Below, in pieces: positions 21,001 to 57,084 of a stretch of 64,000 nucleotides of DNA. The position numbers and the translations under genes are program-made. The stretch spans positions 3,925,148-3,989,147 of the forward strand of contig OY725499.1 in NCBI GenBank assembly GCA_963281255.1. Direction: 5' to 3'. The notes beneath the pieces were generated by a model, which made no database searches, had not been told where the DNA came from, and saw only the letters and a list, made by a program, of their open reading frames with translations. The stretch comes from Aphrocallistes beatrix (lineage: Eukaryota; Porifera; Hexactinellida; Sceptrulophora; Aphrocallistidae). Positions within the stretch are counted from its first letter, which is position 1. Each line of letters starts with the position of its first letter.

Positions 21001-23623
21001 TTCTCACTGTGCCCACTCATACCACGAACTGTGCCACAGCTGAACCACATGGTGATGAGTAGCTTATAATAGTTCATATAAATAGATTGAATTAACTATT
21101 TCGGTAGTTAATAGATTAGTTAGGTATATGTGGAATAATGATAGACAGATAGCGCACAGTCAGGTTTGAACGTTCATCTTCATTTCGGTATTAGGTAACA
21201 ATGAGAACATTTTAAGAAAGTAATATATACTTGAAGTGATGTTGAAGTGATATATACATACATACATATATATACATATATACATTACAGTCAATTCTTA
21301 ATTAATCGGGACACCGCTTAATTGGGACAAGTCTCCAGGAACGGAATGGTTCCCATACATAGAAGCTAATACTAAATTTCATTGGTTAATTGGGAACTCA
21401 GCTTAATCGGGACAAAATATCTCGTCCCGATTAAGCGGAGTCACCTGGTATTAGTTGAAGGATAAAATAATATTCATTATGTTAGAGGACACCTAACTTC
21501 ACCCTAATTCTATACGGAATTTATCCCCTTCGTTTTGAAATTAAGAGACGATTGTCCCTCTTGAGACTTGTCGCCACAAGGTATTATCTAGGAGCGCGAG
21601 ACGCTCCTTTAGGCTATGATTTTAAGCCTCAAAGTATTGTGGAGCGTGAAAATCCAGAATAATACCCAATTTACACAATATTATAATGTATTTATCGATT
21701 TAGGCGTACGAAATTTAGGGGTTTGAGATTAGGAGCGTATCTCTAGAGGACTGTATAATACCCTGCAGGCGCCATGTGTCACTGGATTGGCTGCTCCCCC
21801 TGGCTTGTGAGTCAATGATATTGGGGCGATTCTTAACCATGGATACATAAACTAAATTATGCCTACCCCTACACCTAATGCATAGCCTACTATAATAAGG
21901 CCTCAGAGTAACTTGCGAATTTGGCACTAGGGATGCAGTAGAAGATGGTTGAAGAAATACATGAACTGCCTTAAATCATTAACAAAGCACAATAGAGCTT
22001 AGAAATGTATTACCAGCATATATAAATATGGTGTCAAAGCACCCATATCCGTTGTTAAAATTTAGATTAGCCATCAAATGATTGCACAACAGGTTATATT
22101 TGGGTCAAATTTAGTGATTTTCAGAGGTCGTTTAAGGGCACTTCTAAGTGTTTTTATTATAAAGTTTTTCGCATAGAACTGAGAAGTGAATGTGTTAATG
22201 CGAAAAATTTGGAATTTTTTCATGGAATGTTCTTACATTCCAGTGTTGCTATGGAAACGTGTTTTGGTCAGTTGGGGCTATATCTTGAAAACAGCGATAG
22301 CTAGACATTCAAATTTAATCTCATTTGATAGCAAATAGGCTACTTCCTATTAAGCTATAATATAATTTCTGTGTCTAAATTCAATAATTTACGAGTTATT
22401 AGACAATTTATCATATTGGTCACATTTGGTATTTGTCGAATATCTCGTAAACCATTGAATTTAGACACAGAAATTGTATTATAGCTAAATAGGAAGTAAC
22501 CTATTTGATATCAAATGGGATTATATTTGAATGTCTAGCTATCGCTGTTTTCAAGATATAGCCCCAACTGACCAAAACACGTTTCCATAGCAACACTGGA
22601 ATGTAAGAACATTCCATGAAAAAATTCCAAATTTTTAGTATTAACACATTCACTTCTCAGTTCTATGCGAAAAACCTTGTAATAAAAACACTTAGAAGTG
22701 CCCTTAAACGACCTCTGAAAATCACTAAATTTGACCCAAATATAACCTGTTGCGCAATCATTTGATGGCTAATCTAAATTTTAACAACGGATATGGGTGC
22801 TTTGACACCATATTTATATATGCTGGTAATACATTCCTAAGCTTTATTGTGCTTTGTTAATGATTTAAGGCAGTTCATGTATTTCTTCAACCATCTTCTA
22901 CCGCATCCCTGGTTAAGTTACTCTTAGGCCTTATATATAGTAGGCTATGCCTAATGTCTAATTCACTCAGGAAGGAAGGGGAGCAAAAAGAATGATTGCT
23001 TACAGCAGTGGTTCTCAACTTTTCATCTTGTGGGCCTCTTATATTAATTCAATTATCAGCGCGGACCCCAGCTGAGAACCACTGGCCTAGAGGCGAGGAA
23101 CCTGATGGGTCAATGAAAGTTACCAGAAATTATCTGGACAGCGAGGTACTACAAATAACAAAATAGATTGATCAGTCGGTAAGATCAGTGAGTATCTGTC
23201 AAAATATTAATAAATATACCGATAAAAAATGTAAGATTTTTATTTCCTCAACACCGTACACTGAAACTGAAACTACGGAATTAACGATGACTTAGCTAAT
23301 GTGTCATTCAGTTCTATATATCCATGGTCCATATCTCTAAAGATACGGTATCAATTCATAAACATAAAATCAGTGAGAGGAATCAAACAATTCTCTGATA
23401 CGACTGACCATACAGTGTGCGGGTACAGGATGATAGCCCGTAGGAGGGAGGGTAGATCGAGGTAGTGGTCTCCGTCTAGCAAGAGAGCGCCCCCTTCCAG
23501 CTCCTCACTCAGTCTGTGTAGAGACATCCTGGCGAGTTGCCACTGCCCCAGACTGACGTAGTTGAAGAACACGTACATCAGACGGAGTTGTACCTGCCTG
23601 GCTTCCGTCTGTAGCAGCTCCAT
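15061..23623 (-). CDS. ZFYVE26: ZFYVE26/spastizin-like protein, N-terminal exons
   Basis: Five exons: 23409-23623, 20392-20476, 19873-19965, 15846-16152 and 15061-15365. Every internal boundary has GT/AG and the phases agree (2, 0, 0, 1), giving 335 continuous residues from ATG 23623, which has an in-frame stop two codons upstream. The product matches, in order, what I remember of the spastizin N-terminus. Exon 1 has an FFNYVSLGQWQLAR helix, exon 4 has VDKIYGIL where the family has VDAIYGAL, and exon 5 has NKTHILQEIL where the family has NKHFLEQIL. Spastizin is a ~2500-residue lysosome/AP-5 cofactor with a FYVE finger far downstream. Those later exons were not found before the window start. 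If the last intron is not spliced, translation would end at 15034. Splice sites are my reading, not transcript data. Confidence 0.65.
15440..15770. repeat. compound dispersed repeat in ZFYVE26-like intron 4
   Basis: Contains the facing pieces CCCACTTTCGGACGGGA and CCCGCCCGAAAGTGGG, an imperfect inverted pair. Next to them is a copy of the 'GTATGGCTTCCCCGCCCAAAATGGTTTAAACCGGAAATGACGC' family, also at 0.96 and 55.5 kb. Confidence 0.5.
16554..16968. mobile_element. hAT-like MITE in ZFYVE26-like intron 3
   Basis: Ends CAAGGGGTTCCAACCTT and AAGTTGGAAACCCTG are imperfect TIRs. The perfect 8-bp duplication CTATATAG lies at 16546-16553 and 16969-16976. The minus ORF at 16896-17177 starts in it and is spurious. 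Confidence 0.8.
18047..18199. mobile_element. pogo-like MITE
   Basis: TIRs CAGTAGACTCCGCTTAATAGGG and AGCGGAGTCGACTG. Same family as 14847-15031. Lies in the same intron. Confidence 0.8.
18457..18601. mobile_element. hAT-like MITE (CAGTGTTTCCC ends)
   Basis: TIRs CAGTGTTTCCC and GGGAAACACTG, perfect 8-bp duplication TCGTGAAG at 18449-18456 and 18602-18609. Confidence 0.85.
18932..19085. mobile_element. pogo-like MITE, decayed ends
   Basis: Left end TAGTCAACTCCGCTTAATAGGG, right end AACAGAGTCGAGTG. Shares the internal TTTTGCCCCGATTAAGCGGAGAAC sequence with its relatives. Confidence 0.75.
21288..21448. mobile_element. pogo-like MITE, diverged subfamily
   Basis: Left end CAGTCAATTCTTAATTAATCGGG, right end CCCGATTAAGCGGAGTCACCTGG, in intron 1 of the ZFYVE26-like gene. 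Preceded by a TATACATA microsatellite. Confidence 0.7.
21881..22950. mobile_element. foldback element, two ~510-bp arms
   Basis: The left arm (about 21881-22395) and right arm (about 22444-22950) are near-complete reverse complements separated by only 48 bp. The outer ends read CATAGCCTACTATA...AAGGCCT. There is no ORF of any substance. A related element is at 31074-32139. The RNA would fold into a long hairpin if the ZFYVE26-like intron 1 is transcribed. Confidence 0.9.
23006..23084. mobile_element. 79-bp hAT-like MITE
   Basis: TIRs CAGTGGTTCTCAACTTTTCA and CAGCTGAGAACCACTG. The flanking octamers GCTTACAG and GCCTAGAG agree at 6 of 8 bases, so the duplication is decayed or absent. Confidence 0.65.
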
Positions 23624-24477: not shown

Positions 24478-25370
24478 AAAGCTCATAAACACCATATGAG
24501 GATATAGTATCTAGCCTGACCATAAATTTATGCTGAAAAATATTCCTTCATTTTCTTAGAAATTGCATTTTTATAAGGTAACCTATTATAAAGTATAAGG
24601 TCATTATAATATAAGGTAAGAATGTATTTGGCGAATACAGATTTGAGAGTTGAGTGTATCGATTTCTGCAGAATAATATGATACTATGTGAGAGAATGGT
24701 TAGGCTTTTGTCTATACAACATTTAATTAATTAACTATACTATAATACGTAATTTTATCAGTACTTTCACAGCTATTAGATAGGGAGAGTAGTAACTCGT
24801 TTCAAAATGCCTAAGGTAATGGTAGTTTCCCACGGGAAAATTATCCAAGGGATCAACCATATTCACAGCAACAACAAAGACCAAATTACCACCAACAATC
24901 TATGCAACCACAACCACATTATTCAAACTATATCCCCCAAACACCCCAATTATTACCCTGACAATCCCCAGGACTATTCTCCTAACTACCCTCTATGGTA
25001 GTAATCCCACTAATTTCCCACCGGAAAATTACTCAAGGGATCAACCATACCAACAACCACCATCACCAAAATTCCATCAACAACCACGATATTATCAAAA
25101 CTACAACAACAACAACAGTGGGACCCAAATCAACAGCAAATCCGTCCACCAATGGATCCCAATGTTCCACCACAGGCCAGATATCCGGAGAATTATGTAC
25201 AGAATCCGATGGAACATAGATTCCCACCGCTGAGGACTCAACGTGAGTGTCCTCCTACGCAGTATGAACCCCCTAACCAGTTTCTTCCTCACGGACCCCT
25301 TCAACCAGAATAAGTGGAAGTTCCCACGCCGCTGGAGATACATAGGAACGTTGAGGGGCATGAGGGGTAC
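24478..25370 (+). pseudogene. degenerate partial duplicate of the UBL-death gene
   Basis: The first 330 bp match the promoter and leader of the gene at 28165. Shared words include TATTCCTTCAT, GAGAATGGTTAGGCT and CAGTACTTTCACAG, ending at an aligned ATG (24807). Instead of ubiquitin-like exon 1, the copy then runs into two tandem, broken versions of exon 3 (Pro/Gln-rich, 'AAGGGATCAACCATA', 'CAACAACCACCATCACCAAAATTCCATCAACAACC'). Stops interrupt the first version, and the second loses frame near 25110 (AACAACAACAACAGTGGGACC). The TATA box of the parent (TATATAAG) is not preserved. Splice signals and the ubiquitin-like and death exons are missing, so I call it a pseudogene. Confidence 0.75.
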
Positions 25371-26991: not shown

Positions 26992-27113
26992 ATGTCACGT
27001 CATGTCATGTCACGTCATGTCATGTCACGTCATGTCACGTCACGTCATGTCACGTCATGTCATGTCACGTCATGTCACGTCGTGTCATGTCATGTCATGT
27101 CATGTCACGTCTA
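26992..27113. repeat. (CAYGT)n pentamer microsatellite
   Basis: About 24 pentamers that are almost all either CATGT or CACGT (one CGTGT). The two differ only by a C-to-T change at a CpG. All reading frames are open, which explains the spurious His/Ser/Val/Met ORFs. Confidence 0.95.
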
Positions 27114-28164: not shown

Positions 28165-31100
28165 ATGAAGTTAACGATAGTTGTTGGTAACAACAAGAGC
28201 TATCAATTGGAAGTGGATGGAGCGGAGGACAAAGTCAAAACTCTGAAAACGAAGATTTGTGATAAATGTGGATGCCCACCCTATATGCAGACTCTGATGT
28301 ACTCGGGTAAGTGACAATTTCAATTTATAAACCTTACTGGTGTGAATATGGGCTACTTCATCTCAGTCAGTGGTGTGTATGTAATCCCAAAGTGGTACGG
28401 GCAATTCCTATACTGAACGATGCTGGACAGAAAAGTGTGGCGCATTGGTAGTCATGGCCATCACAACTACACTGTGCATAGCTACGAGGTCACACCCATA
28501 GGCGTCGTAACCCACCCGGTTACCCGGCAATGGCCGGGCGGCCCAGAGGGAATGCCGGGTGCTACCCGGTAAAAAGCTTAGTGCTATTATGTACTGGTAA
28601 TTGGCTGTTACTAATTCCTCATGTAGATCAAGGGTTCACGGCCCATTTGGCTGACGGTAACGCTGGATCAGCTTAAGATACGGCCCGATTAACTGACTGA
28701 ACGGCCCTGGATTATTGTGGCCGGGCAGTCCAAGAGTAGGAAATAAAGTTTACGACGCCTATGGTCACACCCCAAAGTTACACTCCCAAATGAGAATTTC
28801 CAGCTTCGCTTATATATTATACAAGCGCGCTTCGCGCATTTGCATAGCGCGGCGCGGCTAGCAAATACTTTGTCGCCCTGCAGACGTCTGAGAATATCAA
28901 TGAATTTAAGTCCCTGTGGATGTCGAATCTTATATATTAAAACGCTAGGATTTTTTGTTCGTTTGTCCGAATTGATTGAAGAATTGGCAAGTCGTAGAGA
29001 TACGAAAATTGGCATGTAGGTGTCAAATTATGAATCTATGATTAAGTTCGAAGATCTAAGCGAAATTTTCACACCTCTGCAAAAAAAATGGAAACATTTT
29101 TTCACACCTTTTCTATACAATACTATGTACGGCTTCACTCTCACAATAGAAATCATTGTACGACACTATGGTAGGCTGTCATTGTTATTAATATTTCAAA
29201 GCAATAACTTATATAGATGTCTCAATTATACTTGTACACATATTATAGTGTATAGCAATAAAAAGGTTATGTATCTATTTTCACACCTTTATATACATAT
29301 TTTAACACCATTAGACGAATTTTGAAAAATATGCTAGAGACTAGCTTCCAACGATTGACATGGGGTTTTCAGGGGTGTAGATTTCGAATATCATATTTTC
29401 AGATCGATATGATAATTTTTTTGTTTACTTTTGTTTACAATAGATACATAAAGTAAACAAATCTCAAAAATAGGCTAGAGACTAGCTTCCAACGGTTGGC
29501 ATGGGGTTTTTAGGGGTGTAGAATTCGAATATCATATTTTCGGGTCTATGATAAATTTTTTTCTAACAATTTAGTATAGAAAGCACACTAAATATAGTCT
29601 GATTTTTAGTGCAGTATAAGGATGTCATGATTGGCGTACGACGTCCGTCCGTCTGCTCGCTCCTGGAAATTCCATTGGACTAAATTGCACCAAATTTGGA
29701 CCATATATTCTTTATATGGTGGAGATTTGAACTTGGGTCTGTCAGGACAAAATTAGTCCGGGGGACCAGTTTTAGCTGCCAAATTTGGTCCGAGGGATCC
29801 TATGGCAAGGACGGTATACCACATCCGTCCATATGTATGTATCTCCGTACGCTGCGAAATTTGAGTTTTCAAAAATTTAGTAGTCCCGATGTATTACAAT
29901 ATTCATATCTCACGTTCCAAGTCAGCTGAACTATCGGTCTACCGACAGACATTTTTTTTAACATGAAAAACGCCAACTTGAGCCATGATAAAAGCGGGGC
30001 GCAGCGTTTGCGGGACATGGTGGACATGGAGACACAAAATACAATTCAGGATGTATATTATGCATACCCTACGAGTCAAGTTACTTAATGGAGCTGTACT
30101 ATCAGTCTGTCGACTGACATTTTTCTGCTTATCCTTTAGGGAAGGAACTACAGGACGAAAGAACATTTGTGCAACAAGGAGTCATTAAAGAAACAACCAT
30201 TTATGCTACGATTACACAAACTAAAGGAGACATGATTGAACTAACTGTTCAATCTAAAATAAATGTTTCTCTGAAGACGTTCATTAGAATTGAGGAAGGA
30301 AGGAATATTAGAGATTTACAAGAAAAAATATTTGAGGAATTTAAATGCAAGCCTGAGAAGCAATTGCTATACGCAATTAATAGTAAGAAACCAATGAATG
30401 AAATATTTCTGCACGAAGATAGAGGGATTTGGGAATACGAATTTGATCACCATTTCGTTATCTACGTTTACTACGATTTCGAGGGTACAGTATGGTTTCA
30501 TCACAATCGAACTGGACAACGTTACAAGATGAGAATCAAGTCTAACAGTCTGATAACGCGGATAAAAGACCAGCTCAGGAATGAACACAACCTATCTGTG
30601 ACAGAGATTTATAACGAGGCTAATGTTAGGCTGGACGATCAGAGCACCATTGCTGCTACTCGAGTCACACCCTCAGATGTTCTATTTATAGAACTGCTAG
30701 GTATGTAGATATTGTAGTTAGAATTTTGTTACCAGCCATCCCAAATCGCGCCTACATTAATGTTTACCAATTCACATATTCTCCAATCCTATCCATAGTA
30801 CATAACTTAACATTCTTTTTACTATCTCCGTAACACAACTTTTCATTCGAAAATATATTTTTACTTAAAAATTAAGAACACACGGCAGATTTGCAACGGA
30901 CCCACACGGACCGCTGGTTTGGTTCGTGATTATTACCGGTCCCAATCCATCATCGCAATCGTAGGCATGAAATACTAAATAGAGACTTGTATGATAAGCT
31001 ACTTGTAATTAATAAAAATATTAAAATAATAAAAGCGACCATCCAATTTCTGTAATTTTGGTTTTGAATATCCTACTACATATAAGGCCTCACAGTAACT

Positions 31101-34100
31101 TTCGGATTTTGGACTAGGGATGCGGTTGAAGATGGTTGAATTAACCTAAGACTACCGAAATGTACCACAGTGGTACAACTTTATGGCTTCTTTCCCATTG
31201 AAAATGGCTGGAGACATCCGCGATATCGCGACTTTTCGATAACTAGGGTTAATCCTTGAATTTCAGGGTTAATACTTGAATCATTAACCAGTATACCCAC
31301 GCACAATAGAGCTTAGGAATGTGTTACCAGCATATATAAATATGGTGTCAAAGTACCCATATCCGTTGTTAAAATTTAAATTAGTCATCACATGGTTTCG
31401 CAATAGATTATATTTGTGGCAAATTTAGTGATTTTCAGAGGCCGTTTAAGGCCACTTCTAAGTGTTTTTATTATATTTTTTTCGCATGGAACTGAGCTGT
31501 GAATGGGTTGATGTGAAAATTTGGATCCTTTTCATGGAATGTAGCAGCATTCCATGAAAGAAATCCTAATTTTAGTAACGGATATGAGTACTTGACGCCA
31601 TATACGTATATATGCTGGTAATACATTCCTAAGCTCTATTGTGCGTGGTTAATCATTTAAGGCAGCTCATGTATTAGTTCAACCATCTTCTACCGCAGGG
31701 GTTCTTAACCTTTTTGTCCTTACGCCCCCCTTTTATAACCATTAAATCATTATGCCCCCAAGACTTTGAAGTCTATTTGTTAAAAGTACACATTTTAATT
31801 ATTTTGATTAATTGAGTAACTGATTAATTGATTGGGTGAAGTATTATTGAATTAGTGGAGGGTTGTAATACCGGTTAGGGAGGTATAAATTGTCTATAGG
31901 ATATATACATACACACTGAAGTCCCATTATAACCCTTTTAAAATCAGACTCAAATGTAAGTACTAGCCATGTCAAAAGTTTAATGATTTATACACTTGAA
32001 AAAATCAAAATGCTAAATACGAAATCAAATGCCACGCCCCCCCTGAAATGATCATGACGCCCCCCCAGGTTAAGAACCTCTGTTCTACCGCATCCCTAGT
32101 CCAAAATCCGCAAGTTACTGTGAGGCCTTATATGTAGTATGCTATGGTTTTGATATGTACAAATTTGAATGTATAACGTTAAATCCCAACAAAAACTACT
32201 TAGTTTTTGAATGGCAATAATAAGAGGTCTGTCCGGTCCTATCCGATCCGGACCGTAATCATTGTGGACCGTCACAACTCTGATGCATTAATAATGTACT
32301 TTTAGATGATTCCAGAAAAGGTAGTAATCCCACTAATTTCCCCCCGGAAAATTACCCAAGGGATCAACCATACCAACAACCACCATCACCAAAATTCCAT
32401 CAACAACCCCCGCAACCACAACCACGACATTATCAAAACTATCCCCCCAACTACCCTCAGCATAACCAACCTCCTCAACAACAACAGCAACAGTGGGACC
32501 CAAATCAACCGCATAGGCCTACTGGCCATGAACCTCAAAGGGAGCAGCAAATCCGTCCACCAATGGATCCCAATGTTCCACCACAGGCCAGATATCCAGA
32601 TAATTATGTACAGAATCCGATGGAACAAAATTTCCAACAGCCGAGGGCTCGTGAGCGTCCTCCTATGCAGTATGAGCCCCCTAACCAGTATCCTCCCCAC
32701 GGACCCCCCCAGCCCCTTCCTAGGGAGCTGGATCAGCGAGATTTGAGGGAGAGGGGCAGAGCTTTGCACAAGCCTGACGGAATTCCAGTTTTTCAGGATC
32801 CTACTAGAGATCAAGGACATCGAATTCTTGAAAGAGAATATTCTAAATCTAAACCAAATGTGAGGGAGAGCCAATACATAAATGAGAGCCCTTTTTCTCT
32901 TCCGAAACGCGAAGATTGGTACGGCAATCAAGGTAAGCGCTCACAACTTTATTCCGCAAAGGAAGGCTGAGTCAAATTCTTTGAATATTGCCTCAATACA
33001 ATGTCTCATTGTTTAAGCCGACGTGTACCTAGTATTCGAGTCTGCACCCGAAATCAATGGCTTCCTATAGGAACTGACTTAAGCGGAAATGACACAACAT
33101 ATCCTGGTAAACCCAAGGAGGCGCATGCATTAGTTCGAATTCTACATGTAGTCGTTAGTTCGAATTCTGCATGTAGTCGTTAGTTCGAATTCTGCATGTA
33201 GTCGTTAGTTCGAATCGAATTTGCCCATATACTCATTATCATTAGTCGAATTGATTTTAAAAATAATGTCAATAGTTTGAATAGATTTTCAATGTACTGT
33301 CATTAGTTCGAATATATTACCAACGTATTATTTGTTGTTAACACCGTACTTTTGAGGTATGAATTTCATCTAATACAATTGTTAAGTTTCTCCAATTTCT
33401 CATATTCTCAGCAGAAAATGCTGCTTTTCCCTCAGTTCTTATAAACAGCTCTCCATAATGGCACTCAACTACCCCTTCGTTCAGAAATGCCTTTTTCATC
33501 CTCAATTTTCTACTATTCTCTAAAGAAAATGCTTCTTTTCCCTCAGTTCTTATAAATATCTCTTCCAAATGCCACTCAATGACAGTACTACATTGAAAAT
33601 CTATTCGAACTAATGCTGCGTCCCCACAAATTACAACTCCCTATTTATGTCTAAATCCGATTCTAACTAACGACTACATGCCCAAATTCGATTCTAACTA
33701 ACGACTACATGCCCAAATTCGATTCGAACTAACGACTACTTTGAAATTCGAACTAATGCTGCGTCCCTAACTCAAGGTGTTATGTATTCCATTTCTTTTT
33801 CCATTCCTAGACTACAAATTATCAAGGAACCAATGTCCGTAACTTCTCATTACAAACTAACAGATCTATGAACCAGACATTATTACTAAATGTTTGCCCA
33901 AACAAATTCATACTATACATGCTTATATAGAATATTAACAATCCTCTCAGAATATAGCTCAAATTACAAATACAAAAGTTTCTTCTTCTTTACACATATG
34001 ACGTATATGTATGCATCATATGACAAAAACGGAAGATTAATGATGTTGAACATTAGTAGAAAATTGGTAACGTACAATTGGCGAAATTTTTTCCACTGCC

Positions 34101-37100
34101 CATGGTTCCAATTCAAAAGTACAGATTTCTTTTCTTTTTCAAAACTGATAACTTTGGAATCCTTGGTTCTAATTCAGATAAGTTCCTTCATTCTTTCATT
34201 TTAAATATTGAACAGTGATTGCAAAAAGGCTAAAGTAGAAGTATATTAATTCAATTTTAATTATGAATGGAATGTTTCGTTCTTCTAAATCAGACATTTT
34301 GACGCATATTTATGCTCGCTGGTTTCAGCAGTCTACTGTGCAGATTCCAACTGATTCGTTCGTAATATTAATAATATATTAACTTGGCATATCATCTCCT
34401 TAGTTAACATTACGGAGGAAATGAATTATTAAGTTAATACTATGTTTCCTTGCTAGATTTCTCTGTGGCTGGACGTACCACGCTGTTCAGTACAAGGATA
34501 TTTTCGTGCATTATACTTGGCATTTATCTTTTTTCATGTCAGCTGTTATAAGCTGAGTAAGAGAATTCCTTTTTATTATAATATTTTCTTTATTGTTGAG
34601 CAAATGTGACGAATTATTGCCCCCCCTTCGACCAGAGGAACTCTCACCTAACTGGGGACATAGATTAGGGAAAAGTTTTCTGTGTCCCGCCATTTAGTGT
34701 AGTACCTATGTCCATATGGAAGGAGTTCGATTTCTATCAAATTTGTTAGCCCAAACTTAGATTTTCTAAATGATTTTCTGAGGAAACATTCTTATTTTAC
34801 ATATACACACTCCTGAAATTGTTTGTGGCTGGCTACGTCCTTGCTTACTCTAGCTATAGCTTTCAACCAGATAATTAGATGTGTTATAGCGGATTAATCT
34901 GTTGTCTTTTTGTGGGAAGTGAAATAATAAACTTGTAGGCCAGTTCACTTAACCACAGTTAATAACTATTATACTATACATGATCTAATTCATTACAATA
35001 CTACACATACATTTTAACATTTTAATGATACAGTAGAACCTCGTTAACACGAACACCTGTCGTACAATCGACTCCGCTTAATAGGGTCAACCGCTTAATC
35101 GGCCCACTTTTGGCAGGACCGGAATAGCTCTCACACATAGAAACTAATACAACACATTTTCAGTTAATAGGGTTCTCCGCTTAATCGTGCAAAATGTCCT
35201 CTGAATGATGTGACCCTATTAAGCGGAGTCAACTGTATTTTCCTAAAATATAAAATATCTGTTCGAATTATCCGGAGTTTCGTATTATCCGTGTTCGTAT
35301 TAATGAGGTTCTACTGTATAAAGGAAAAAGCAACAACTTAGTTTTTATGACAGGAATCAGTCTATAAATAGATTATTTTCCACTATCTTTTGGCGAAGCA
35401 CCTAGGACCATTGCTTACTAATACTCTATCTACAGGTGGCAGTGGTATGGGATATAACCCAACTCAAGAAGAACCCATCTACCAGAAAGTCCCCTCTGCT
35501 CCATCAAGAGATGAATATGGTGAGTTAGCACGAAGCGAATGTGGTTAAATATTTGTATAATAAAAATCCCTCCAAATTACACAGAAATAAATCTTTTTGA
35601 GAGAACAGTTATTTTAGGATTGTTCATTTTGTCGAAAACCCGATCTTGTATTTCGAGTTTTACGAATTTAATTGGTCCATTTAAATGAGATAAAAATGTA
35701 TTTACTAAAAACTCAAGTCAAAATAAACAATAAATCTAAATCTTTCACTTACTCAATTTGATAATTAATCTGCAATTAAATGTTACTTCTAGTTCTGCTC
35801 AAAGTTCAACTAACACTGTCAATAATATGAATAAATTATTAGGAAGAGTCCAATACGTGTGTAGTCAACTAATTGCGATTGGTAGATTACAGATTGTAGC
35901 ATCTTCTACAATATTGTTTATTTCCCTTTATACCATTATCGCCTGAACTTGCTTATAATCTAATTTAAAATATCAGTTTATCCTACATCAACACTGTACA
36001 GTAGCAGAGTAACATTAACATGTAAATTCGCCCACAGGTGTCTAATCATGGATCCGTGTACTGTGCAATAGATATCGTTATTCTGCAGTAGTCTAAAACA
36101 TTATGTTTCACGTGCAGGTTTTATGTTTAGGAGAATTGTGACATGATAATTGGTAGAATGGAATTTAAACCAAATTATATTCTGAAGGAAATAGGATATT
36201 GTTTATAGATTGATAAGGCTAAATGCCTGCGGTGTTCTGATATCTTCATTGACGCCTCTTAAATATCTTAATTGGAATAATTTGAGTGTGATAACATCTG
36301 TGTTTTATGGCTGTTTAATTATTAACCACTTCTAACAGGCACAAAAACAGTGAATATATTTTAACTTCATCATCATTTCGTCGCTCGTTGATCCTGTTTG
36401 TGCGACCTAATGCGTTCTGTATATAGAATGAGTTATCCCGCTTTTATAGCACATACCACATGTTAGATCTCATCTAATCAAGATATCCGCTATGATGGAA
36501 CTAGATTATCATTCAGTTTTAGCTGCACCTATTACAACGAGTTCCTTGGACCCATTTCTGTTGCTATGTGACCTTTTGTTTTATCGGTGTTTTCATCAAC
36601 ACTTTAACATTAAGTCGCATAATGTACCGTACTTTTAGTTATTGCGTTGGTTAATTAACGATGCTCTTAATTGATTATTGAATTAAGATTTAATTAGAAC
36701 TCAAACATCATCCAGATATAGCAAAATATCATCTTAGTATGTCTGCTTGTGATCAATTATTCGTTACATAATGTTACATAATGATTTTGCTAGAGCAAGA
36801 TGGGTGTCGTAAAGGACGCATGCCCTCGTGAGAATACCTTGTTCATGTCTACACATCTGTACAAATCGCTGTAGACCATTCCTGTTGTTACAGAAGACAT
36901 GAATATTTGGTTTATGGCTTTTGATACAAACAGTTCAAGTTATAGTTCATTTGGACTGGTGCTCCAGGTGCACAATGTTCTGTGGGATTTTATCATAGTT
37001 CCTTTATCTACAGCCGGTGTAATTAAATCAGTCAACAATTCCGTGTGAGAAAGATTAAGAAATTTGAGTGAAAATTTTAAATTTATAGCTTTCTATGCTC

Positions 37101-38080
37101 TATTGCATTACAAAACGAAAAGTCAGGGTTGCTTATTGTGAACCACCAGGGGACCAAAAAATCTGTTCATAATAGAGATACTTCATATTAAGCGAACTTG
37201 ATTCAATACAAATTTTATCTAAAAAATGAAATTGGGACCAGGAGGTTAGTTCATAATAAACGAATGTTCATATTAAGCGACCCTGACTGTACATAGAACC
37301 CGAGAGACATGGGGAGGTACAGTGGAAAGGTATTATACTTGGAATCCCAAAAATCGGGAAATAATAATGGGGAATTTCATTAATAAACGGGACGGTTGGA
37401 ATGTATGGAACTGATTGATATGCCCTAAAAAGGTAATTATGCGGACGATGTACGATTTGAACAAATTTAGAGACTGTGGCTTGTAGTGTGGTGTCGAAGT
37501 GTCATCTGACCTTCCCATACCACTGAGTAGCGTCAAGAGTCAGGTGTCCCCCGTTGAGTCAGACTCCGGAAAACATTGATCCTAGAGCCCCAATTCCAGG
37601 GACAAGATCTGTGGGACATCTGGCACTATGACAGTAGTATCTAATCATGGTTTCTCCTCAAATGCAACAATAACTGTGTTTGTATTCTTGTTTATCGCTG
37701 CATGCTGTAACTGCATTAGCTGCACCACGTTATTCACTGTAATTAATTTCTCCTGCATCGTGTGAGGTATTATAACACTTCTTTGTTTGATAGAAATGGG
37801 TGACAGATTCCTGTCTCAACTTATCATTGCAGCGGAAAAAGACTGGGAAAAAATAGGCACAATTCTTCTCGACGATTTCCCTCGAATCCAGGAAATCAAA
37901 CGGCAGCAGAACAATGAGGTATACCCCTCTTCAATGTGCGTGTTACACGAGTGGAAACAACGGCGCCAAGCTCAAGGAGCCAACTCAAGAGCGATGCCTT
38001 ACAACACTCAATCTCTCGCGTATGCTCTTCGGGACGTTGGTAGGATGGACCTAGTTCACAAGTTCTTTCCTCGTAAATGA
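28165..38080 (+). CDS. three-UBL, Pro/Gln-rich, death-domain protein
   Basis: Assembled from five exons: 28165-28306, 30140-30700, 32306-32932, 35436-35519 and 37794-38080. All four introns are GT-AG and all are phase 1. The total is 1701 nt, 566 residues plus stop. Domains: UBL1 about 1-74 (starts MKLTIVV, has MYSGKELQDERTF where ubiquitin has IFAGKQLEDGRTL); UBL2 about 78-155; UBL3 about 160-235 (NVRLDDQSTIAATRV, ends FIELLG); Pro/Gln/Asn-rich linker about 236-440; exon 4 linker with PTQEE; death domain about 474-566 (W at EKDWEKIG, HEWKQRR, SLAYALRDVGRMDLV). No diGly end, signal peptide or membrane span, so a cytoplasmic adaptor is inferred. Ubiquitin-like domains act as non-cleaved protein-interaction modules; death domains form homotypic oligomers. 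I know no standard animal protein with this order. Confidence 0.8.
28300..30130. other. intron 1 content of the UBL-death gene
   Basis: Holds a GC-rich block with CCGGGTTACCCGG-like words (28.50-28.57 kb) and a CGCGCTTCGCGC-bearing dispersed repeat (28.79-28.92 kb; relatives at 49.56, 55.79 and 56.91 kb). It also holds reversed copies of the ATTCGAAATCTACACC family (28.98-29.56 kb). No alternative exon seen. Confidence 0.5.
31074..32139. mobile_element. foldback element with nested insertions
   Basis: Outer ends TACTACATATAAGGCCTCACAGTAACTT and the complement match those of the 21.9-kb foldback. The arms are interrupted on the left by a block at about 31141-31285 that is related to 49.69-49.77 kb. 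On the right, a hAT-like MITE is inserted at 31696-32082. The element occupies intron 2 of the UBL-death gene, 165 bp before exon 3. Confidence 0.8.
31696..32082. mobile_element. hAT-like MITE nested in the foldback arm
   Basis: TIRs CAGGGGTTCTTAACCT and AGGTTAAGAACCTCTG. Perfect 8-bp duplication TTCTACCG at 31688-31695 and 32083-32090, within a foldback arm, so it is younger than the foldback. Confidence 0.9.
33117..33772. mobile_element. inverted-repeat element with tandem sub-repeats
   Basis: The left end has GCATTAGTTCGAATTC followed by three TGTAGTCGTTAGTTCGAATTC units. The right end has the same units inverted (CTAACGACTACATGCCCAAATTCGATT) and GAACTAATGCTGCGTCCC. The centre contains a 130-bp direct repeat (CTTTTCCCTCAGTTCTTATAAA at 33424 and 33535). 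In intron 3 of the UBL-death gene. Confidence 0.7.
33780..35035. other. intron 3 remainder, nothing recognised
   Basis: AT-rich intron sequence. The plus ORF 33890-34204 is rich in Ser/Phe/Tyr with no family resemblance, and I reject it as a gene. Confidence 0.45.
35037..35319. mobile_element. pogo-like MITE inserted in another MITE
   Basis: The outer TIRs CAGTAGAACCTCGTTAACACGAAC and GTTCGTATTAATGAGGTTCTACTG sit between TA dinucleotides. Inside them lies a complete CGACTCCGCTTAATAGGGTC...AAGCGGAGTCAACTG element (about 35067-35236) of the family at 14.8 kb. Confidence 0.85.
35520..37793. other. intron 4 of the UBL-death gene
   Basis: AT-rich. It contains a MITE remnant at about 37.13-37.29 kb (GGGACC...GTTCATATTAAGCGACCCTGACTGTA; same family as 2.9 kb). 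The remaining ORFs are short and featureless. Confidence 0.5.
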
Positions 38081-48066: not shown

Positions 48067-48113
48067 ACAGTATATAATATTACTCAATACTAGAATTGAT
48101 ACATAATACACAG

Positions 48114-48686
48114 ATGAATCCTTCAAATTTGTTCATGATTATTTCAGAACCTGAATCTCAGTGTGCCAGTGTCGATAAAACCGTTGTCTTTAAAGTGTCT
48201 GCATCTGGCTATAACCTCTCCTATCAGTGGTACCGACAAGATGGTCTGGCTATCCCCGGAGCCTGCAAGCCTTTCTTGACCATTGGACCGCTGAGGAGAG
48301 GAGATTTCGGGTTCTACCGCGTGAGAATACAAGACTACTTTGGGGCCCATGTCCTCTCGTGTTGGGTGGAATTATCCAACTCTGCCTCGATCGCACACGC
48401 ACCTCCCGTCTTCAAGATTAACCCCCTCCCCGCCCGTGGCAGACCTGGAGAGTACGCGTACTTGTTCGCACTGGCTACAGGCGTGAATGTGGAGTACCAG
48501 TGGTACGATGAGAAGGGGGTAGCCATTCCTGGCGCCACCGAGAAGAGTTTAACTTTTGAACCAATCCAGAGTCACCACGACTTCGGATTCTACAGATGTC
48601 TAGCAGAGGATCAGTTTGGTCGTCAGACCTTGTCTAACTGGGTCGAGTTAATTCATGAAGATTCAGCTATGCAAAAGATTTGTTAA
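48114..48686 (+). CDS. leaderless two-Ig protein 1 (MALT1-Ig-like)
   Basis: 190 residues from the first ATG after the TATA box. The ORF is open further upstream only through a TTG. Two similar Ig domains lie at about 12-95 and 105-188, each with YQWY, a P-G-A turn, LTIGP or LTFEP, and the Tyr corner DFGFYR, and each ends with WVEL. The pattern YQWxK...DxGFYxxRV...FSxW resembles the first Ig domain of the paracaspase MALT1. Canonical Cys pairs are incomplete, as expected for a cytoplasmic Ig fold. No signal peptide or membrane span. AATAAA is at 48787. Both domains are of the GFY type here, unlike the minus-strand paralogues, whose second domain is of a different type. Function unknown; a binding module is the simplest guess. 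Confidence 0.75.
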   Translation: MNPSNLFMIISEPESQCASVDKTVVFKVSASGYNLSYQWYRQDGLAIPGACKPFLTIGPLRRGDFGFYRVRIQDYFGAHVLSCWVELSNSASIAHAPPVFKINPLPARGRPGEYAYLFALATGVNVEYQWYDEKGVAIPGATEKSLTFEPIQSHHDFGFYRCLAEDQFGRQTLSNWVELIHEDSAMQKIC

Positions 48687-48786
48687 GCTTTCTCAGAGAT
48701 CTCAGTCGTTGCACTAGAATATCCTTGCCTATACTAGAGACTTCCAAGTTTTGACATACATTCAGTTGGATCGAGTATTATTAAAA

Positions 48787-48792
48787 AATAAA
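48787..48792 (+). terminator. poly(A) signal of Ig gene 1
   Basis: AATAAA, 101 bp past the stop codon. Confidence 0.5.
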
Positions 48793-50690
48793 ATACTTGA
48801 CTGTTGTGTATGCTGACTCTAACGTAAAAGTTAGTTTTTTAACCTATCAAATCATTCATGGAATTACGAGTAATTCCATGATTATGCTTAGTAATATATT
48901 TAAAAAATTGTCTGTAAAGTACCTTCATAATTCTCACTAAGAGTAACCTCATCTATAATTATGCTACATCAAGACTTCATCCAAATTTTCAGGGTACACG
49001 CTTAAAACATGCTTCTGATATTTTCATGCGCCTAGATAGCCAATCAAATATTAAGATATACGTATGTAGGAGTTATGGAGAAATTTCGCTTTGTTTTAAA
49101 TTAACGCTTCAGGAGCGCCGCATGCGTCTGGATGAAATTCTAAACATTACAAAATAAGAAGTTACATCAAAAGAAAATCATAAAGATACCCCAGTTTGCC
49201 TCCATCTTTATCAAGCAGTCGCCATCCAGATATCTCACAAATGTGCTGGGATACCAAGTGAGTGTATCCTGGCATAGCGGGACTTATTTGACGATAACTC
49301 ACTTGCAATGGCGGATAAACCGGGCATGCCTAATTTCCGGGACGGGACGAGTCAAGATGCCTAATCTCCGGGACGGGACAGAAAAGGTACCTAATTTCCG
49401 GGACGGGATGCCGTCCCGTCGCAGAAGTTAGGCATGCCCAGATTAACCACGGGGCACCTGACCTGAGGCATTTGCCCCAGGTGCTCCCACTAAAGTCCAC
49501 AAATGCAAAATTTATTTTAAAATATAGCTAATTTAGTTTGAGAGCTATAATTACAATCGCGCTTCGCTTCCTTCCGCTGCGCGGCTGGCGGACACTTTGT
49601 GTTTGCCGAAGGCACTCTTCGGACGCCTGGGCTCACAATGATTAATTATAAGGGAGATAACATCTTTAACTGTAGAATGCCCAGCATTTATATGGCTTCG
49701 CACTTTTAGGGCTTCGATGCCATAGAAAATGGCTGGGAGACATCCGCGATATCGGGGACACTGTGTCCCCTCTGGGCACTCTACGGTTTAAATATGTGTA
49801 TCTTACTGTTGTAATCGATATCATTCGAAAAATCATCAAATTTGTCAGTTTTTCAATTTTTGATGCGTAATGAAGTCATAACAGAGTGATGAGTCATCAC
49901 TTTTCGATGATAGTTGTATAATGTGTGAAAAATATGTATTAGTATACACATTCTATTAAGATTTCAGTCTTCTATCACCTAAAATGGTTGAGTTATAGCC
50001 GAAAAACTGAAATTTATAATTCTAAAAAGGTGACAATGACGTCATAATTCCATGATGAGTTGACATTTTCGTCTGAGCTCAGAACTGCCATAGCCAAAAG
50101 ACTCCCACATGCCAAAAATCAACTTTCTGGGCCTGGCAGTTTCTTCAATCAATTCGTTGCAGTGATATATATATAGTATATATATTAATCGAGTTTTAAT
50201 AGTAAGGATATACACTTATTATATTTTAAAGAAAAGGTGTGAAACATTGTTTTCCATTTTTTAATAGTGGTATGAAAATTTCGCTTAGATCTTAGAACTT
50301 AATCGTAGTCATATAATTTGGCACCTACAATTTTCATATCTCTGCGACTTGCCAATTCTTCAATCAATTCGGACAAACAAACAAACAAGCAAATCCTAGC
50401 GTTTTAATATATAAGATTTAATCTATTGTAGTGTCGTACAATGATTTCTATTTTGAGAATGAAGTCATAATATATTGTATAGAAAAGTTGTGAAAAGTTG
50501 TTTCCATTTTTTGTAGAGGTGTAAAAATTTCGCTCAGAACTTAAACCTACTTGCCAATTTCTATATATCTACGATTAGCCATTTGAAACTAAAAGAACTG
50601 TAAAAGTACTGTAAAAACGCTAAAAGGAAAGGTAAACTAAAAGCAGTGTAAAAGTACTGTAAATAAAGGTCAAGTATACCTTCTTTCTAG
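48793..50690. other. repeat-rich intergenic region
   Basis: Contains GCCTAATTTCCGGGACGGGA tandem words (49.32-49.43 kb), a CGCGCTTCGCTTCC block (49.55-49.64 kb) and the CATCCGCGATATCG repeat (49.74 kb). Fragments of the ATTCGAAATCTACACC/TTCACACC family run from 50.16 to 50.57 kb. The ORF 49243-49431 is repeat-derived. Confidence 0.5.
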
Positions 50691-50697
50691 AAGAAAG

Positions 50698-50705
50698 TAT
50701 ATAAG
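50698..50705 (+). promoter_or_regulatory. TATA box of the frameshifted Ig gene
   Basis: TATATAAG, 71 bp before the ATG at 50776, so the promoter is still intact although the reading frame is not. Confidence 0.55.
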
Positions 50706-50775
50706 AACCAGCAAACTAAGTAAATTATTAATACTATAATTCCACAGAAAATTTAAAAGCTTAAAAAGGGACAAT

Positions 50776-51443
50776 ATGTATTCTGACGCATTCCAAGTTC
50801 AAAATGATTTCGACCTTACGAGGAGTTCAAATGCGAAAATCAATGCAAAAATTAAAATATTGAAAGAACCAGCAGACGCAATTGGAAAAATAAACTCATA
50901 TACAATTTTTTTAGCAAAAGTTCAAGTAAATAATCCCACTTATCAATGGTTCAATCAAAAAGGGGAACAGATAAGAGGAAAATGTCGAAGCTATCTGCAA
51001 AAAAGGAAGAAGATTTCGGATTTTATCGGTTAGAAATTACGGATGGAGTAACAAAAGAAGCAAAACTATCAAGATGGGTAGAACTGAAGAACCCAATGCC
51101 AAAAACCATCCAACACCAACACCAACACCAACACCAACCACAGTTATATTACTCAAACCAGCAATACAACTACATACAAGAAACACCGAAACCCAAACTT
51201 GTATGGCAAGCAGAAGGAAGGTCCTATGTACTAGGAAGTACTATCATTATCGGTGCTCAGTTCGAGAATGCAACAACTTATCAATGGTTTAAGGACGGAA
51301 TGAGGTTATACGGCTGTACAGGGAATCAACTTAAAATCACTAACGCGGCATGGGGAAATCGTGGAAATTTCAGATTAGTCGCTGCAAATACAAATGGAGA
51401 TAAAGTTGAAGCAATAATACCTGTTTTTATTACTAACTACTGA
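50776..51443 (+). pseudogene. two-Ig protein 2, frameshifted
   Basis: Encodes the same two-Ig plan as the minus-strand paralogues (IGKINSYTIF, TYQWFNQKG, then EDFGFYRLEI, SRWVELK, a Gln/His-rich linker, and TYQWFKDGMRLYG). The frame breaks between the Leu codon at about 50994 and GATTTCGG. Only 14 nt separate them, where the 54.4-kb paralogue has 24. The ten missing bases remove the conserved IGP segment and shift the frame. Frame 1 then stops at 51031-51033, within 85 codons, while the second half is open in another frame to 51443. The linker carries a (CAACAC)n run giving HQHQHQHQ. The promoter and both halves look little decayed, so loss is recent. A sequencing error would have to remove ten bases, which is unlikely. 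Confidence 0.75.
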
Positions 51444-51860
51444 CCCTACATGTCAATGTGAAGACCAAAGTCAAAATTTCAGTACTATCATAATTCAAAA
51501 GTTTTCTTTGTTATCCCCTTTGTTATATTCTTTCCTATATTAATGAAAGTAAAAACTGAATTTAATTTTTTGATGATTTTAGTAATATAGTGTTTGATTA
51601 GTATATACTCTGATGTGTTTCTTAATATTTTTTTATTCTTATTAAACATTGTTGGATGGAGTATATGTATGGAATTAGTACGAAACCCGAAGAAGAACGT
51701 ATTTCACAGATATTAATAATTTGGTGACATACAGAATATCTCAAAAAATTGATATGCATTTGGTATAAAAAGCTAGTGGTTGAGTTCCTATAATGTTTAA
51801 CATTTCTCTCATTTCAGCATTGATGATAATTACAATTTAATGAAACATGATTGGAGGTAA

Positions 51861-52532
51861 TCACATTATGTCAACTCTTGTTTTCATATGGCTGGTTCCA
51901 CTACTGTTCATGGCATAAATGGTATAGTCCCCAGTATTTCCTAACTTGGCATTGGTAATAGCAAGAGTGTTTCCAACACATCCTTCTAGCTTCACTCCAT
52001 CCTTGTACCATTGATAGTGAGTGGCATTCTCGAAGTGAGCAGTGAGAGTTATATTAGATCCTCGTGAGTATGCTCCTCCTTCAGGTTGTGTCAGTAGCAC
52101 AGGTGTCAGTTGTTGAGTTTGGCAGCTGCTGTATTCTTTTCGAGCTTGCACAGGAAAGGGTTGAGGTGGAACATTAGGTTCTACCTGCTGGTTTGTATTC
52201 AGATCTGACTGAGTATTCCTAGGCTTTGCTCTCTTTAGTTCTACCCATCTTGTAGAAGCTGTTTTACCAGTATACTTTTCCCAAATACGCAGTTGATAAA
52301 AACCGAAATCTTCTTCTTTGATTGGTCCAATAGCTAGAATGCTCTTGCACATACGTGGCATAGCCTTACCGTTCGTATCGTACCATTGATACAGAGGGTC
52401 ATTCGCTTCAACTATTACAGGGAAGTTTAAATATGCGCCTATTCTTCCTATCGTGTCCATTGGTTGCTGTTTTATAGTTATCTCAGGAGGGCCGTATGAA
52501 GTATATTCTGAGGGTTGATTGGGTAGACTCAT
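51861..52532 (-). CDS. leaderless two-Ig protein 3 (MALT1-Ig-like)
   Basis: 223 residues, single exon. Ig1 about 15-108 (GRIGAYLNF, LYQWYDTNGKAMPRMCK, EEDFGFYQLRI, TRWVELK). Linker about 109-140 with QQVEPN and PVQARKE. Ig2 about 141-223 (QPEGGAYSRGSNITLTAHF, HYQWYKDGVKLEG, NTGDYTIYAMN). The order matches the tandem Ig1-Ig2 of MALT1, where the second domain also has HYQWFK. No signal peptide, transmembrane segment, death domain or caspase-like domain follows. It starts at the first ATG, and a weak TATA-like GATAAATAG lies upstream near 52.58 kb. Ig2 and its linker are almost identical at DNA level to the 54.4 and 58.7 kb copies, suggesting recent duplication or conversion. Predicted cytoplasmic. 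Confidence 0.75.
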   Translation of the reverse strand: MSLPNQPSEYTSYGPPEITIKQQPMDTIGRIGAYLNFPVIVEANDPLYQWYDTNGKAMPRMCKSILAIGPIKEEDFGFYQLRIWEKYTGKTASTRWVELKRAKPRNTQSDLNTNQQVEPNVPPQPFPVQARKEYSSCQTQQLTPVLLTQPEGGAYSRGSNITLTAHFENATHYQWYKDGVKLEGCVGNTLAITNAKLGNTGDYTIYAMNSSGTSHMKTRVDIM

Positions 52533-52599
52533 TTTGACTGAAATTCGTCTTTTATTTAGTTGATTAATTCTTTACTATTTATCTAAAAGGCTTATACAA

Positions 52600-53812
52600 A
52601 TCGAACTAAATATAGTGCATACAAAAACTACCCATCCACCAATTAGATACTATCATCCTGTAGGATATCCGCATTCTGATTATGCAGGTGGATTTATAAG
52701 AATAGTTTGCTGACTAATGCTTATTAATATATTCTAATATAATATATTACAAATGATTACATTAGCACGTGCAGTACTAATTATAGTTTTCAAAGAAAAC
52801 CCTCTATTCATGTGAAGTCTTGTGGGTTGTAATTCTTGCTGACACCTACACGTTATTTTTGTTTGTAGTTTTCTAATCAACTTCCACAGGATATGTAAAA
52901 TCAGATCTTATATGTAAAATCAGAACTATTCGAGATATATGGAAAATATCCGAAACAATTTAGAAAGATGTCTGCCAACAGACCGTTGTTGCATTAAACA
53001 CTAACCATAATGTAAGTATGCATAGATGAATGTCATTAACCAGTAAGTGCAAAGATCAGATTCTATCGTGAATATGTATATTAGTTGAGTTCTTGCTTGA
53101 ATACATAATACTAGTAAGATATAATAAGATGTTTAATTTATATGCATACGTACTATTGCTTAAATAATAATTCACTAAATATTACTTAATATTATAACCA
53201 TCAAAGTGCAGAGATCGTATTATACATGTACGCTACCCTATCCTAACAGTTGAGATCTCATTAATATTACAAAGCACGGCAACATACATATATATTTGGA
53301 GCGCGATATTTTCCATATATCTCGAATAGTAGCTGAGGTAATTATTAACTTTATTCTAATGGTAGAAACAACTTTTAGCACCCTCTTTGGATTCGGGATT
53401 GGGACCATTATTCAAGAATATACAGTATTTTAGAGCTGTTCTGTCAGATGATATTATTCTAAAATTTTAAAAAAATTCTCTGATCCGTGTCTGTTTTAAG
53501 ACAGCACACTGAATATATATAATTTTGCATAACATCTTATCATACTGACTCTGCAAGCAATTCAGTCACAGAGTTAGTAACTTCTTGTATATCTTAATAA
53601 GAGTAAATTACGGTGCAGAATCAAAATTGAAAAATTGAACAAAAAATACTTTTGCGGAGTTGGATTCGGTCTCAAATATTAGAACTCGACCCGAAAAATC
53701 CGAATTCCAACTCTTACTAAGTACTTTAATACGGGAGTGAGGTTGAAATTTATAGTTTTGCACCAAAAAACCGAAACCTTGATGGGAACAAAGTGACTAT
53801 TTAAAAGTTGCA
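52600..53812. other. intergenic, nothing recognised
   Basis: AT-rich. 'TGGATTTATAAGAATAGTTTGCTGA' (52.69 kb) resembles 'AGGATTTATAAAAATAGCTTGTTGA' (54.14 kb), so flanks of the Ig genes are themselves duplicated. Confidence 0.5.
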
Positions 53813-54300
53813 CTCAAGTGGTACAAATTTCTACCATATAAGGAATATATGTATTTTCCAAATATGATGCAATTCAGTCCAATATATTTTCCAGGAAAGA
53901 GTAGACTTCCTTACGGAATTTATAATGCAAATAGGATATTGTACTGATTGGATAAATTAATGAACCAAAAGTACACACAACAACCTTTGAATAATTTTGG
54001 TCAGTTAATGCAATTCAGTTCTGCTCATCAACTCTGATAAACTGAGTAAAGCTATACTACTATATCGATGAAACAAGAATTCCCATTCGGCTCACTATTA
54101 GCAAGCAAAATATTTGTACATGATAATACCTGTAGAAGGATTTATAAAAATAGCTTGTTGATAATACTTAGTAAGATTATGCAAACTATCACATGAGTTG
54201 CGCGTATTTATGGTTGGACTTCATTCTACTGATTTGGATGAACAGTTGCACAAAGGTAGTTCTATTACAGTTGTGCCATCAATAGTAATGGTGACAAGTA
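53813..54300. repeat. duplicated 3' flank of Ig gene 4
   Basis: About 480 bp that reappears at 55870-56330 with few differences. It is the downstream flank of the minus-strand Ig gene at 54412. Confidence 0.85.
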
Positions 54301-54411
54301 CATTATGATTTCTACCATCTTAAAAACTTAGAATAATGGTGCCATACATAATATATTAAATAATGTTGTAGTAGTTACAAATTTCAAGGTTTCCAATGTG
54401 AAGAATTGATT

Positions 54412-55131
54412 CTAGTAGATTGTAACTTGTGTCTTCACAGAGTGGAAGTTATTACTGTTCATGGCATAAATAGTATATTCCCCAGTATTCCCTAGATATG
54501 CATTGGTAATAGCAAGAGTGTTTCCAACACATCCTTCTAGCTTCACTCCATCCTTGTACCACTGATAGTGAGTAGCATTCTCGAAGTGAGCAGTGAGAGT
54601 TACTCTAGATCCTCGTGAGTATGCTCCTCCTTCAGGTTGTATCAGTAACTTAGGTGTTGGTTGTTGTTGAGGTTTTGTGTGAAAGTCTGTGTATTGTCTC
54701 CTAGTTTGCACAGGAGAGGATTGAGGAAGAGATTCAGTACGGATCAGACTAGGCTCTACCTGCTGGTATTCATTCATGTCTGACTGAGTTAGTCTACGCT
54801 GTGCTTTTTTAAGTTCTGCCCATCTTGTTAACACAGCTTGGTTAGTTATTCCATCTGTAATTTCCAGTCGATAGAAACCGAAATCCTCTCCTCTTACTGG
54901 TCCAATAGTCAGAGTGCTCTTGCACATACGTGGCATCGGAGTGCCGTTCTTATCGTACCATTGATACTGCGGGTTATTCGCCTGAATCCTCGCAAAGAAG
55001 TTGACATATGAGCCTATTTTTCCTATTGCGTCAATTGGTTCTGCTATAATGTTTAGCTCACTCGTATGTTTAGGACTCAGTGCTAATTTATCCTGGGAAC
55101 CTGATGGGATTGAGTCTGAATAAAATTCCAT
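54412..55131 (-). CDS. leaderless two-Ig protein 4 (MALT1-Ig-like)
   Basis: 239 residues, single exon, start ATG 92 bp after a TATAAATA. Ig1 about 28-125 (GKIGSYVNFFARIQ, QYQWYDKNGTPMPRMCK, LTIGPVRGEDFGFYRLEI, LTRWAELK). Linker about 126-165 (NEYQQVEPSLIRTE, PQSSPVQTRRQ). Ig2 about 166-239 (LTAHFENATHYQWYKDG, NTGEYTIYAMN). It shares the unusual RMCKS turn with paralogues 3, 5 and 6, so a Cys on the C' strand replaces the classical Cys pair. No localisation signal. The gene's own flanks have been duplicated without the coding part (see the 55.9 kb entry). Function unknown. Confidence 0.8.
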   Translation of the reverse strand: MEFYSDSIPSGSQDKLALSPKHTSELNIIAEPIDAIGKIGSYVNFFARIQANNPQYQWYDKNGTPMPRMCKSTLTIGPVRGEDFGFYRLEITDGITNQAVLTRWAELKKAQRRLTQSDMNEYQQVEPSLIRTESLPQSSPVQTRRQYTDFHTKPQQQPTPKLLIQPEGGAYSRGSRVTLTAHFENATHYQWYKDGVKLEGCVGNTLAITNAYLGNTGEYTIYAMNSNNFHSVKTQVTIY

Positions 55132-55222
55132 TTAAAATAAATATAAGCCTCTTTAATTAATTGAATTTAATGGCAACAGAGTTAGATAAGATGTATTTTA
55201 CTGATAACTGTCTAGTTAGTTC

Positions 55223-55230
55223 TATTTATA
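55223..55230 (-). promoter_or_regulatory. TATA box of Ig gene 4
   Basis: TATAAATA on the minus strand, 92 bp before the ATG at 55131. It is duplicated at about 56.41 kb in the ghost copy. Confidence 0.6.
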
Positions 55231-55868: not shown

Positions 55869-55869
55869 C

Positions 55870-57080: not shown

Positions 57081-57084
57081 AAAA

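Follow-up and report, generated by a model that had tools for sequence, protein, structure and literature searches.

The analysed window is a stretch of 64,000 nucleotides from the glass sponge Aphrocallistes beatrix (contig OY725499.1 of assembly GCA_963281255.1, positions 3,925,148 to 3,989,147). Between positions 28,165 and 38,080 its plus strand carries five exons, separated by four GT-AG introns with phase 1 at all junctions, which join into 1701 nt encoding 566 amino acids and a stop codon. The predicted protein begins with one certain and two probable ubiquitin-like domains (UBL1 to UBL3), continues with a Pro/Gln-rich linker and ends in a probable death domain, a module that serves immune and cell-death signalling. 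The components of this gene, in window coordinates and with donor scores out of a maximum of 9, are the following.

28165..28306, plus strand: exon 1, with the start codon and the beginning of UBL1 (residues 1–47); donor CGG/GTAAGT, score 8; Pfam ubiquitin match of 23.6 bits, E 4.3e-5, for this piece alone.
30140..30700, plus strand: exon 2, remainder of UBL1 followed by UBL2 and UBL3 (residues 48–234); donor score 7; UBL2 and UBL3 below the Pfam cut-offs but supported by an own-genome UBL profile.
32306..32932, plus strand: exon 3, Pro/Gln-rich linker followed by a charged stretch (residues 235–443); donor AAG/GTAAGC, score 8; codon score z 5.3.
35436..35519, plus strand: exon 4, symmetrical linker exon of 84 nt (28 codons), for which in-frame skipping would be possible; donor ATG/GTGAGT, score 8.
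37794..38080, plus strand: exon 5, death-domain-like C-terminus and stop codon; match to Pfam family PF00531 (Death) below its cut-off, best acceptor continuation of exon 4, ATG at 37796–37798.
37833..38080, plus strand: alternative in-phase start of exon 5 following CAG, shortening the start of the domain by 13 residues; coding score 14.2, the second best.

The five exons, their splice signals, their phase and the length of 566 residues were reproduced exactly as originally predicted, and among 32 combinations of donors and acceptors, taken from a few bases around each site, these junctions were the only stop-free solution. The predicted Pro/Gln linker is also present, the enrichment being found in its first part. 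Donors were scored at nine positions against the donor consensus; only seven of the 1293 plus-strand GT sites in the 20–45 kb region reach a score of 8, and three of these seven are exon ends of this gene. The acceptors are preceded by 15, 10, 11 and 11 pyrimidines per 17 positions, and only the first of them stands out. Among 266 in-frame AG sites between 35560 and 41190 that could continue exon 4, position 37794 ranked first with a coding score of 15.9, while the best candidate outside exon 5 reached 7.5. Codon scores, calculated in frame and compared with intron and intergenic windows of the same length, gave z values of 2.5, 3.7, 5.3, 2.0 and 3.5 for exons 1 to 5, with exon 4 being the weakest. 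Polyadenylation hexamers decide nothing, since there are too many of them (ten in the 32.9–38.7 kb region, all 5' of exon 5). Judged from the sequence, the exon structure is confirmed, and all five exons probably belong to one transcript.

The uniform phase had also been taken to suggest assembly by shuffling of symmetrical modules. The shared phase is genuine, but exons and domain modules do not coincide, because intron 1 interrupts UBL1 midway, exon 1 contains no whole domain, and exon 2 contains one partial and two whole domains; moreover, exon 5 is terminal. Exon shuffling is not shown by the uniform phase alone.

Scans against 24,736 Pfam families with curated cut-offs identified UBL1 as a member of PF00240 (residues 9–74, 47.4 bits, E 1.7e-12, cut-off 25.4). 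This match crosses the boundary of exons 1 and 2; once they are joined, UBL1 reaches 45.9 bits with Pfam ubiquitin, compared with 23.6 for exon 1 alone, and the 28-residue piece of UBL1 encoded by exon 2 has no Pfam match on its own. The sequence leaves UBL1 certain as a ubiquitin-like domain. UBL2 and UBL3 are probably ubiquitin-like as well. With a profile built from 18 UBLs of the same genome and 2000 shuffles per query, three shuffles of UBL2 and one of UBL3 scored above the real sequence; the E-values were 0.69 for UBL2, 0.2 for UBL3, and 0.0045 for the exon 2 frame as a whole. With single sequences compared to own-genome profiles, hhalign gave weak signals or none (P 0.0014 over 62 columns for UBL3), and crosswise controls gave P 0.73 and 0.21. 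In the genome searched (100.5 Mb, 28 contigs), UBL3 found only itself at E ≤ 10, and UBL2 found itself and one match at E 0.31. Of the three predicted ubiquitin-like folds, one is therefore secure, while the other two, both below the Pfam cut-offs, are probable.

Alignment of UBL1 with the genome's own ubiquitin showed that Leu8, Ile44 and Val70 (ubiquitin numbering) are replaced by Gly, Met and Thr, and that KG-D stands where ubiquitin has its terminal Gly-Gly, while Lys is kept at six of the seven ubiquitin lysine places. UBL1 does not show the combination of patch and Gly-Gly end that would mark polyubiquitin or a functional ubiquitin, and the identity to ubiquitin is 16% for UBL2 and 17% for UBL3. 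The proposal of a ready-made ubiquitin chain is weakened by this comparison, and a built-in chain is only weakly supported, because the UBL1 patch is changed and the Gly-Gly end is missing. Known ubiquitin readers may fail to bind UBL1, and UBL-specific readers could bind it.

For exon 5, Death (PF00531) was the best of the 24,736 families, with 20.3 bits and E 6.2e-4 against a cut-off of 22.6. We also constructed a separate death-domain profile from five death domains of the same genome and three stretches from the PDB and ranked 1,628 open reading frames (ORFs) taken from the window and from loci L021 onward without L028, of which 1,623 were not used in training. Exon 5 ranked sixth, directly after the five training members, and one of its 2000 shuffles scored higher. 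It contains a W, an LxxW and an LxxALxxxGRxDLV pattern, as is typical of death domains. An NCBIfam scan of exon 5 gave nothing useful, and in the genome it found only itself at E ≤ 10. Altogether, these data point to exon 5 as a probable death domain; the predicted C-terminal death domain gains from its first place among the non-training ORFs and loses from its sub-threshold Pfam score.

Several observations weigh against reading the locus as one gene for a UBL and death-domain protein. Exons 3 and 4 are each outscored by another frame, which contains three stops in the case of exon 3 and none in the case of exon 4, and no conserved domain spans junctions 2 to 4, which are predicted from the nucleotide sequence. 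Pfam places UBL2 nearest to Ubiquitin_2 (16.5 bits, E 0.012, cut-off 23.1) and UBL3 nearest to Rad60-SLD (15.1 bits, E 0.02, cut-off 23.8), both below threshold; the hhalign match of UBL2 to an own-genome profile (P 0.012) covers just 25 columns, and the ubiquitin-binding patch of UBL1 is, as described, mostly replaced. The sub-threshold PF00531 match weakens to E 0.026 when the whole protein is scanned, exon 5 was not picked up by a genome-wide search with the Death profile, and a PDB sequence search with exon 5 returned no death domain, with the same result on repetition. Its E-value with the separate death-domain profile was only 0.45, and in hhalign the other five death domains of the genome aligned to it with no more than P 0.03, over 19 columns. 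Of ten shuffled control peptides, four had a Pfam match of some kind at E ≤ 5: a UBL2 shuffle matched an unrelated family with E 1.6e-4, which beats the Death match of exon 5, and a UBL3 shuffle matched an unrelated family about as well (E 0.019) as the real UBL3 matches its best family. Pfam E-values alone are therefore no proof, since shuffled peptides reach similar values. None of the ten shuffled peptides, four of them derived from exon 5, matched a Death or UBL family.

The weakness of these matches leaves room for a reading in which exon 5 is joined as proposed and encodes some other small helical domain. The sub-threshold Pfam score, the absence of a death domain from the PDB sequence matches, the weak hhalign result and the shuffled sequence with the better E-value for an unrelated family would all fit it. 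Nevertheless, we consider it quite unlikely, given that Death is the best of all Pfam families for exon 5 and is matched by none of its four shuffles, that the separate profile puts exon 5 ahead of every non-training ORF with a single higher shuffle in 2000, and that the residue pattern is typical of death domains. The main rival is a different division of the locus, which would assign exons 1–4 or 1–3 to a UBL and Pro/Gln-linker gene and leave a separate small death-domain gene of 94 codons starting from the ATG at 37796, with the acceptor-like site being a trans-splice acceptor or a chance occurrence. The ATG is indeed the first full codon of exon 5, and the poly-UBL-linker frames found elsewhere in the genome (see below) have no detected death domain. 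For the glass sponge Aphrocallistes vastus, PMC10282587 reports trans-splicing of leaders (about 37 nt), nesting of 12.4% of the genes, and 12,409 transcripts with a single exon, listed next to 19,578 genes. Since exon 5 opens with ATG and since trans-splicing and single-exon genes occur in this glass sponge, a separate death-domain gene is a live alternative, albeit an unlikely one: in the same source only 4% of the A. vastus long reads carry a predicted leader, the exon 4 donor, one of the top seven within 25 kb, would still need a partner, and exon 5 ranks first of the 266 phase-compatible sites, the next candidate outside it reaching less than half of its score.

The gene could also be a product of local duplication that has lost its function or is decaying. 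A broken relative lies upstream:

24508..25299, plus strand: decayed partial duplicate of the window gene, comprising the 5' flank, the start codon and the Pro/Gln exon in two copies.

Its start codon is located about 3.4 kb upstream of that of the window gene; it contains stops, its frame is broken, and matching UBL or death-domain exons are missing. Together with the repeat fragments in the introns and the lack of a full paralogue elsewhere in the genome at E ≤ 0.01, this duplicate would be compatible with decay. However, all five exons of the window gene are open, and strong donors and coding bias are kept, so we regard decay as very improbable. On balance, we lean towards a single five-exon animal gene encoding a UBL–linker–death adaptor of 566 residues, probably cytosolic.

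The UBL part of this gene has relatives in the genome. A ubiquitin profile search gave at least 150 matches (150 of 186 candidates scored). At 589–597 kb of contig C7, reading frames were found which, like the window gene, encode several tandem divergent UBLs followed by Gln/Pro-rich linkers; five UBL stretches pass individually in each of three frames, and by eye the frames appear to form two neighbouring genes. They differ from the window gene in having more UBLs, in that an additional UBL-like stretch (22.5 bits, just under the cut-off of 25.4) forms the end of the second gene, and in that no death domain was found in them by the genome-wide Death search or by frame scans, nor were they among the 25 best of the ORF ranking. 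The C7 linkers show no alignment with the linker of the window gene beyond composition. A motif shared by exon 4 and a C7 linker came up in one of ten comparisons at a shuffle P of 0.03 and was rejected as not significant after ten tests. Given the C7 frames, a poly-UBL protein extended by a linker is not unique in this genome; what is new is the death domain, by which the window gene seems to vary a local poly-UBL theme. The architecture had been put forward as having no standard counterpart: no published description was found among titles and the openings of abstracts, but the combination of poly-UBL and Gln/Pro linker recurs on C7.

Other UBL frames were recorded as well. Polyubiquitin-like frames, each rich in divergent ubiquitin repeats (six in the one frame scanned), cluster at C15:555014-584647 (in part locus L021). 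UBL frames, several of them tandem, with Cys-rich tails (CSIL, CNIL, CCLI, CILV) occur at L032:1785-6601 (C10:4446-4451 kb), L033:2759-3334 and 5122-5658, L034:2344-2907, and L038:3509-3871; Pfam identified two UBL stretches in each of two scanned frames of this group. Their tails look like prenylation signals, comparable to those of the protein UBL3/MUB. Families in tandem, whose members combine an N-terminal UBL with a Cys-rich C-terminal region bearing CPxC motifs, are present at L035 (C20:483-493 kb), L036 (C14:3693-3703 kb) and L037 (C4:6062-6069 kb), and in the two frames scanned Pfam gave UBL families only. At L039:2570-3625 (C11:207 kb), two ubiquitin stretches of a UBL-repeat frame pass individually, and a TUGS match (E 0.002) is below the cut-off.

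Several features of the window lie outside the gene. Five Ig-like frames of at least 170 residues with similar sequences occupy positions 48078–60702, one on the plus strand (48078) and four on the minus strand (51861, 54412, 58701, 60178); both of the two frames scanned have Ig_3 above the cut-off. Near-identical frames are present at 4147–4671 and 6247–6762 on the minus strand, the one scanned having a sub-threshold bZIP match, and a third frame at 336–923 has bZIP_Maf above the cut-off. An inverted repeat at 21926–22913 consists of 481-nt arms, 96% complementary, separated by a 26-nt gap, and fragments related to it are located in intron 2 of the window gene (31294–31482 and 31602–31697). 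A run of short TCATG/TCACG repeats at 27000–27110 adjoins the gene.

On mitochondrial and gene-content features, the genome is very probably that of a glass sponge. The cox1 gene on the 18-kb contig C28 requires TGA to be read as Trp; in cox1 and a second frame taken as cox2, Trp is encoded by 19 TGA and no TGG codons. The eleven AGA codons in the aligned part of cox1 stand opposite Ser five times, Gly three times, Ala twice, Asn once and never Arg in the best PDB cox1 chain, Ser being the commonest counterpart. Glass-sponge mitochondria have AGR reassigned to Ser and use UGG rarely if at all, according to excerpts of Rosengarten et al. 2008 (PMC2267718). Profile searches of the genome gave five matches for TGF-beta and none for Wnt, a zero that is no proof of absence; PMC5684314 describes the loss of Wnt ligands and the retention of TGF-beta in glass sponges. 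A tunicate source, in which AGA would mean Gly (found opposite three of the eleven AGA places), and a bilaterian one were judged improbable in view of the Trp codons and the missing Wnt match.

An adaptor role is the most economical and most likely reading of the predicted protein. Three tandem UBLs would form its N-terminus, followed by a flexible linker of about 235 residues providing reach and by the C-terminal death domain. The latter could pair with a further death-domain protein encoded in this genome and thereby join a death-domain assembly, which would bring the UBLs together, and the UBL tandem would recruit ubiquitin-pathway partners or be read by them. The Death profile search found five places in the genome besides the window gene, and these other loci mean that possible partners exist. 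Candidates are a Death exon followed by a downstream exon with a sub-threshold TIR_2 match, making it TIR-like (L026); a p105-type Rel/ankyrin/Death frame with ankyrin and Death above the cut-off and an RHD-dimerisation match just under it (L027); and a single caspase-like/TIR-like/Death frame at L024:1455-3173 (C1:5968 kb), in which Death is above the cut-off and caspase and TIR_2 are both below, a combination that appears unusual. The location, oligomerisation and partners of the window protein, as well as a role in immunity or cell death, are what we infer from this layout.

If the exons form one gene, ubiquitin-like folds and death-domain assembly, two signalling codes, would be united in one polypeptide of an early-branching animal. 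Such a protein would be a natural example of UBLs reaching a death-domain complex without enzymatic ubiquitination and would point to a large UBL expansion in the lineage. One could hypothesise that glass sponges evolved a "UBL-chain" signalling layer that is genetically encoded and needs no enzymes, the window gene being its link to death-domain assemblies; this is a long shot, as is the corresponding picture of many lineage-specific poly-UBL proteins, some membrane-anchored and some linker-extended, whose arrays are delivered by gene fusion and not by E1-E2-E3 conjugation.

The combination of UBLs and a death domain looks unusual. No published description of such a protein was found among titles and the beginnings of abstracts, a literature search combining ubiquitin with "glass sponge genome" gave no match, and the terms "ubiquitin" and "death domain" are both absent from the main text of two glass-sponge genome papers. 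Among shuttle proteins of the Rad23 and UBL-UBA type, the likeness is confined to UBL1, which matches the first 79 positions of TIGR00601 with 27.6 bits, far below the cut-off of 207.3; unlike Rad23, the window protein has no UBA or XPC-binding match in a whole-protein Pfam scan. With polyubiquitin, ISG15 and FAT10 it shares ubiquitin-like folds arranged head-to-tail in one chain and differs in the missing Gly-Gly end of UBL1, the strong divergence of UBL2 and UBL3, and the presence of a long linker and a death domain. Finally, death-domain adaptors of the FADD, MyD88 and NF-kB p105 type resemble the window protein in carrying a death domain, probable here, at one end of a multi-domain protein; their partner modules, however, are DED, TIR or Rel/ankyrin, and in the window protein this place is taken by the UBLs.

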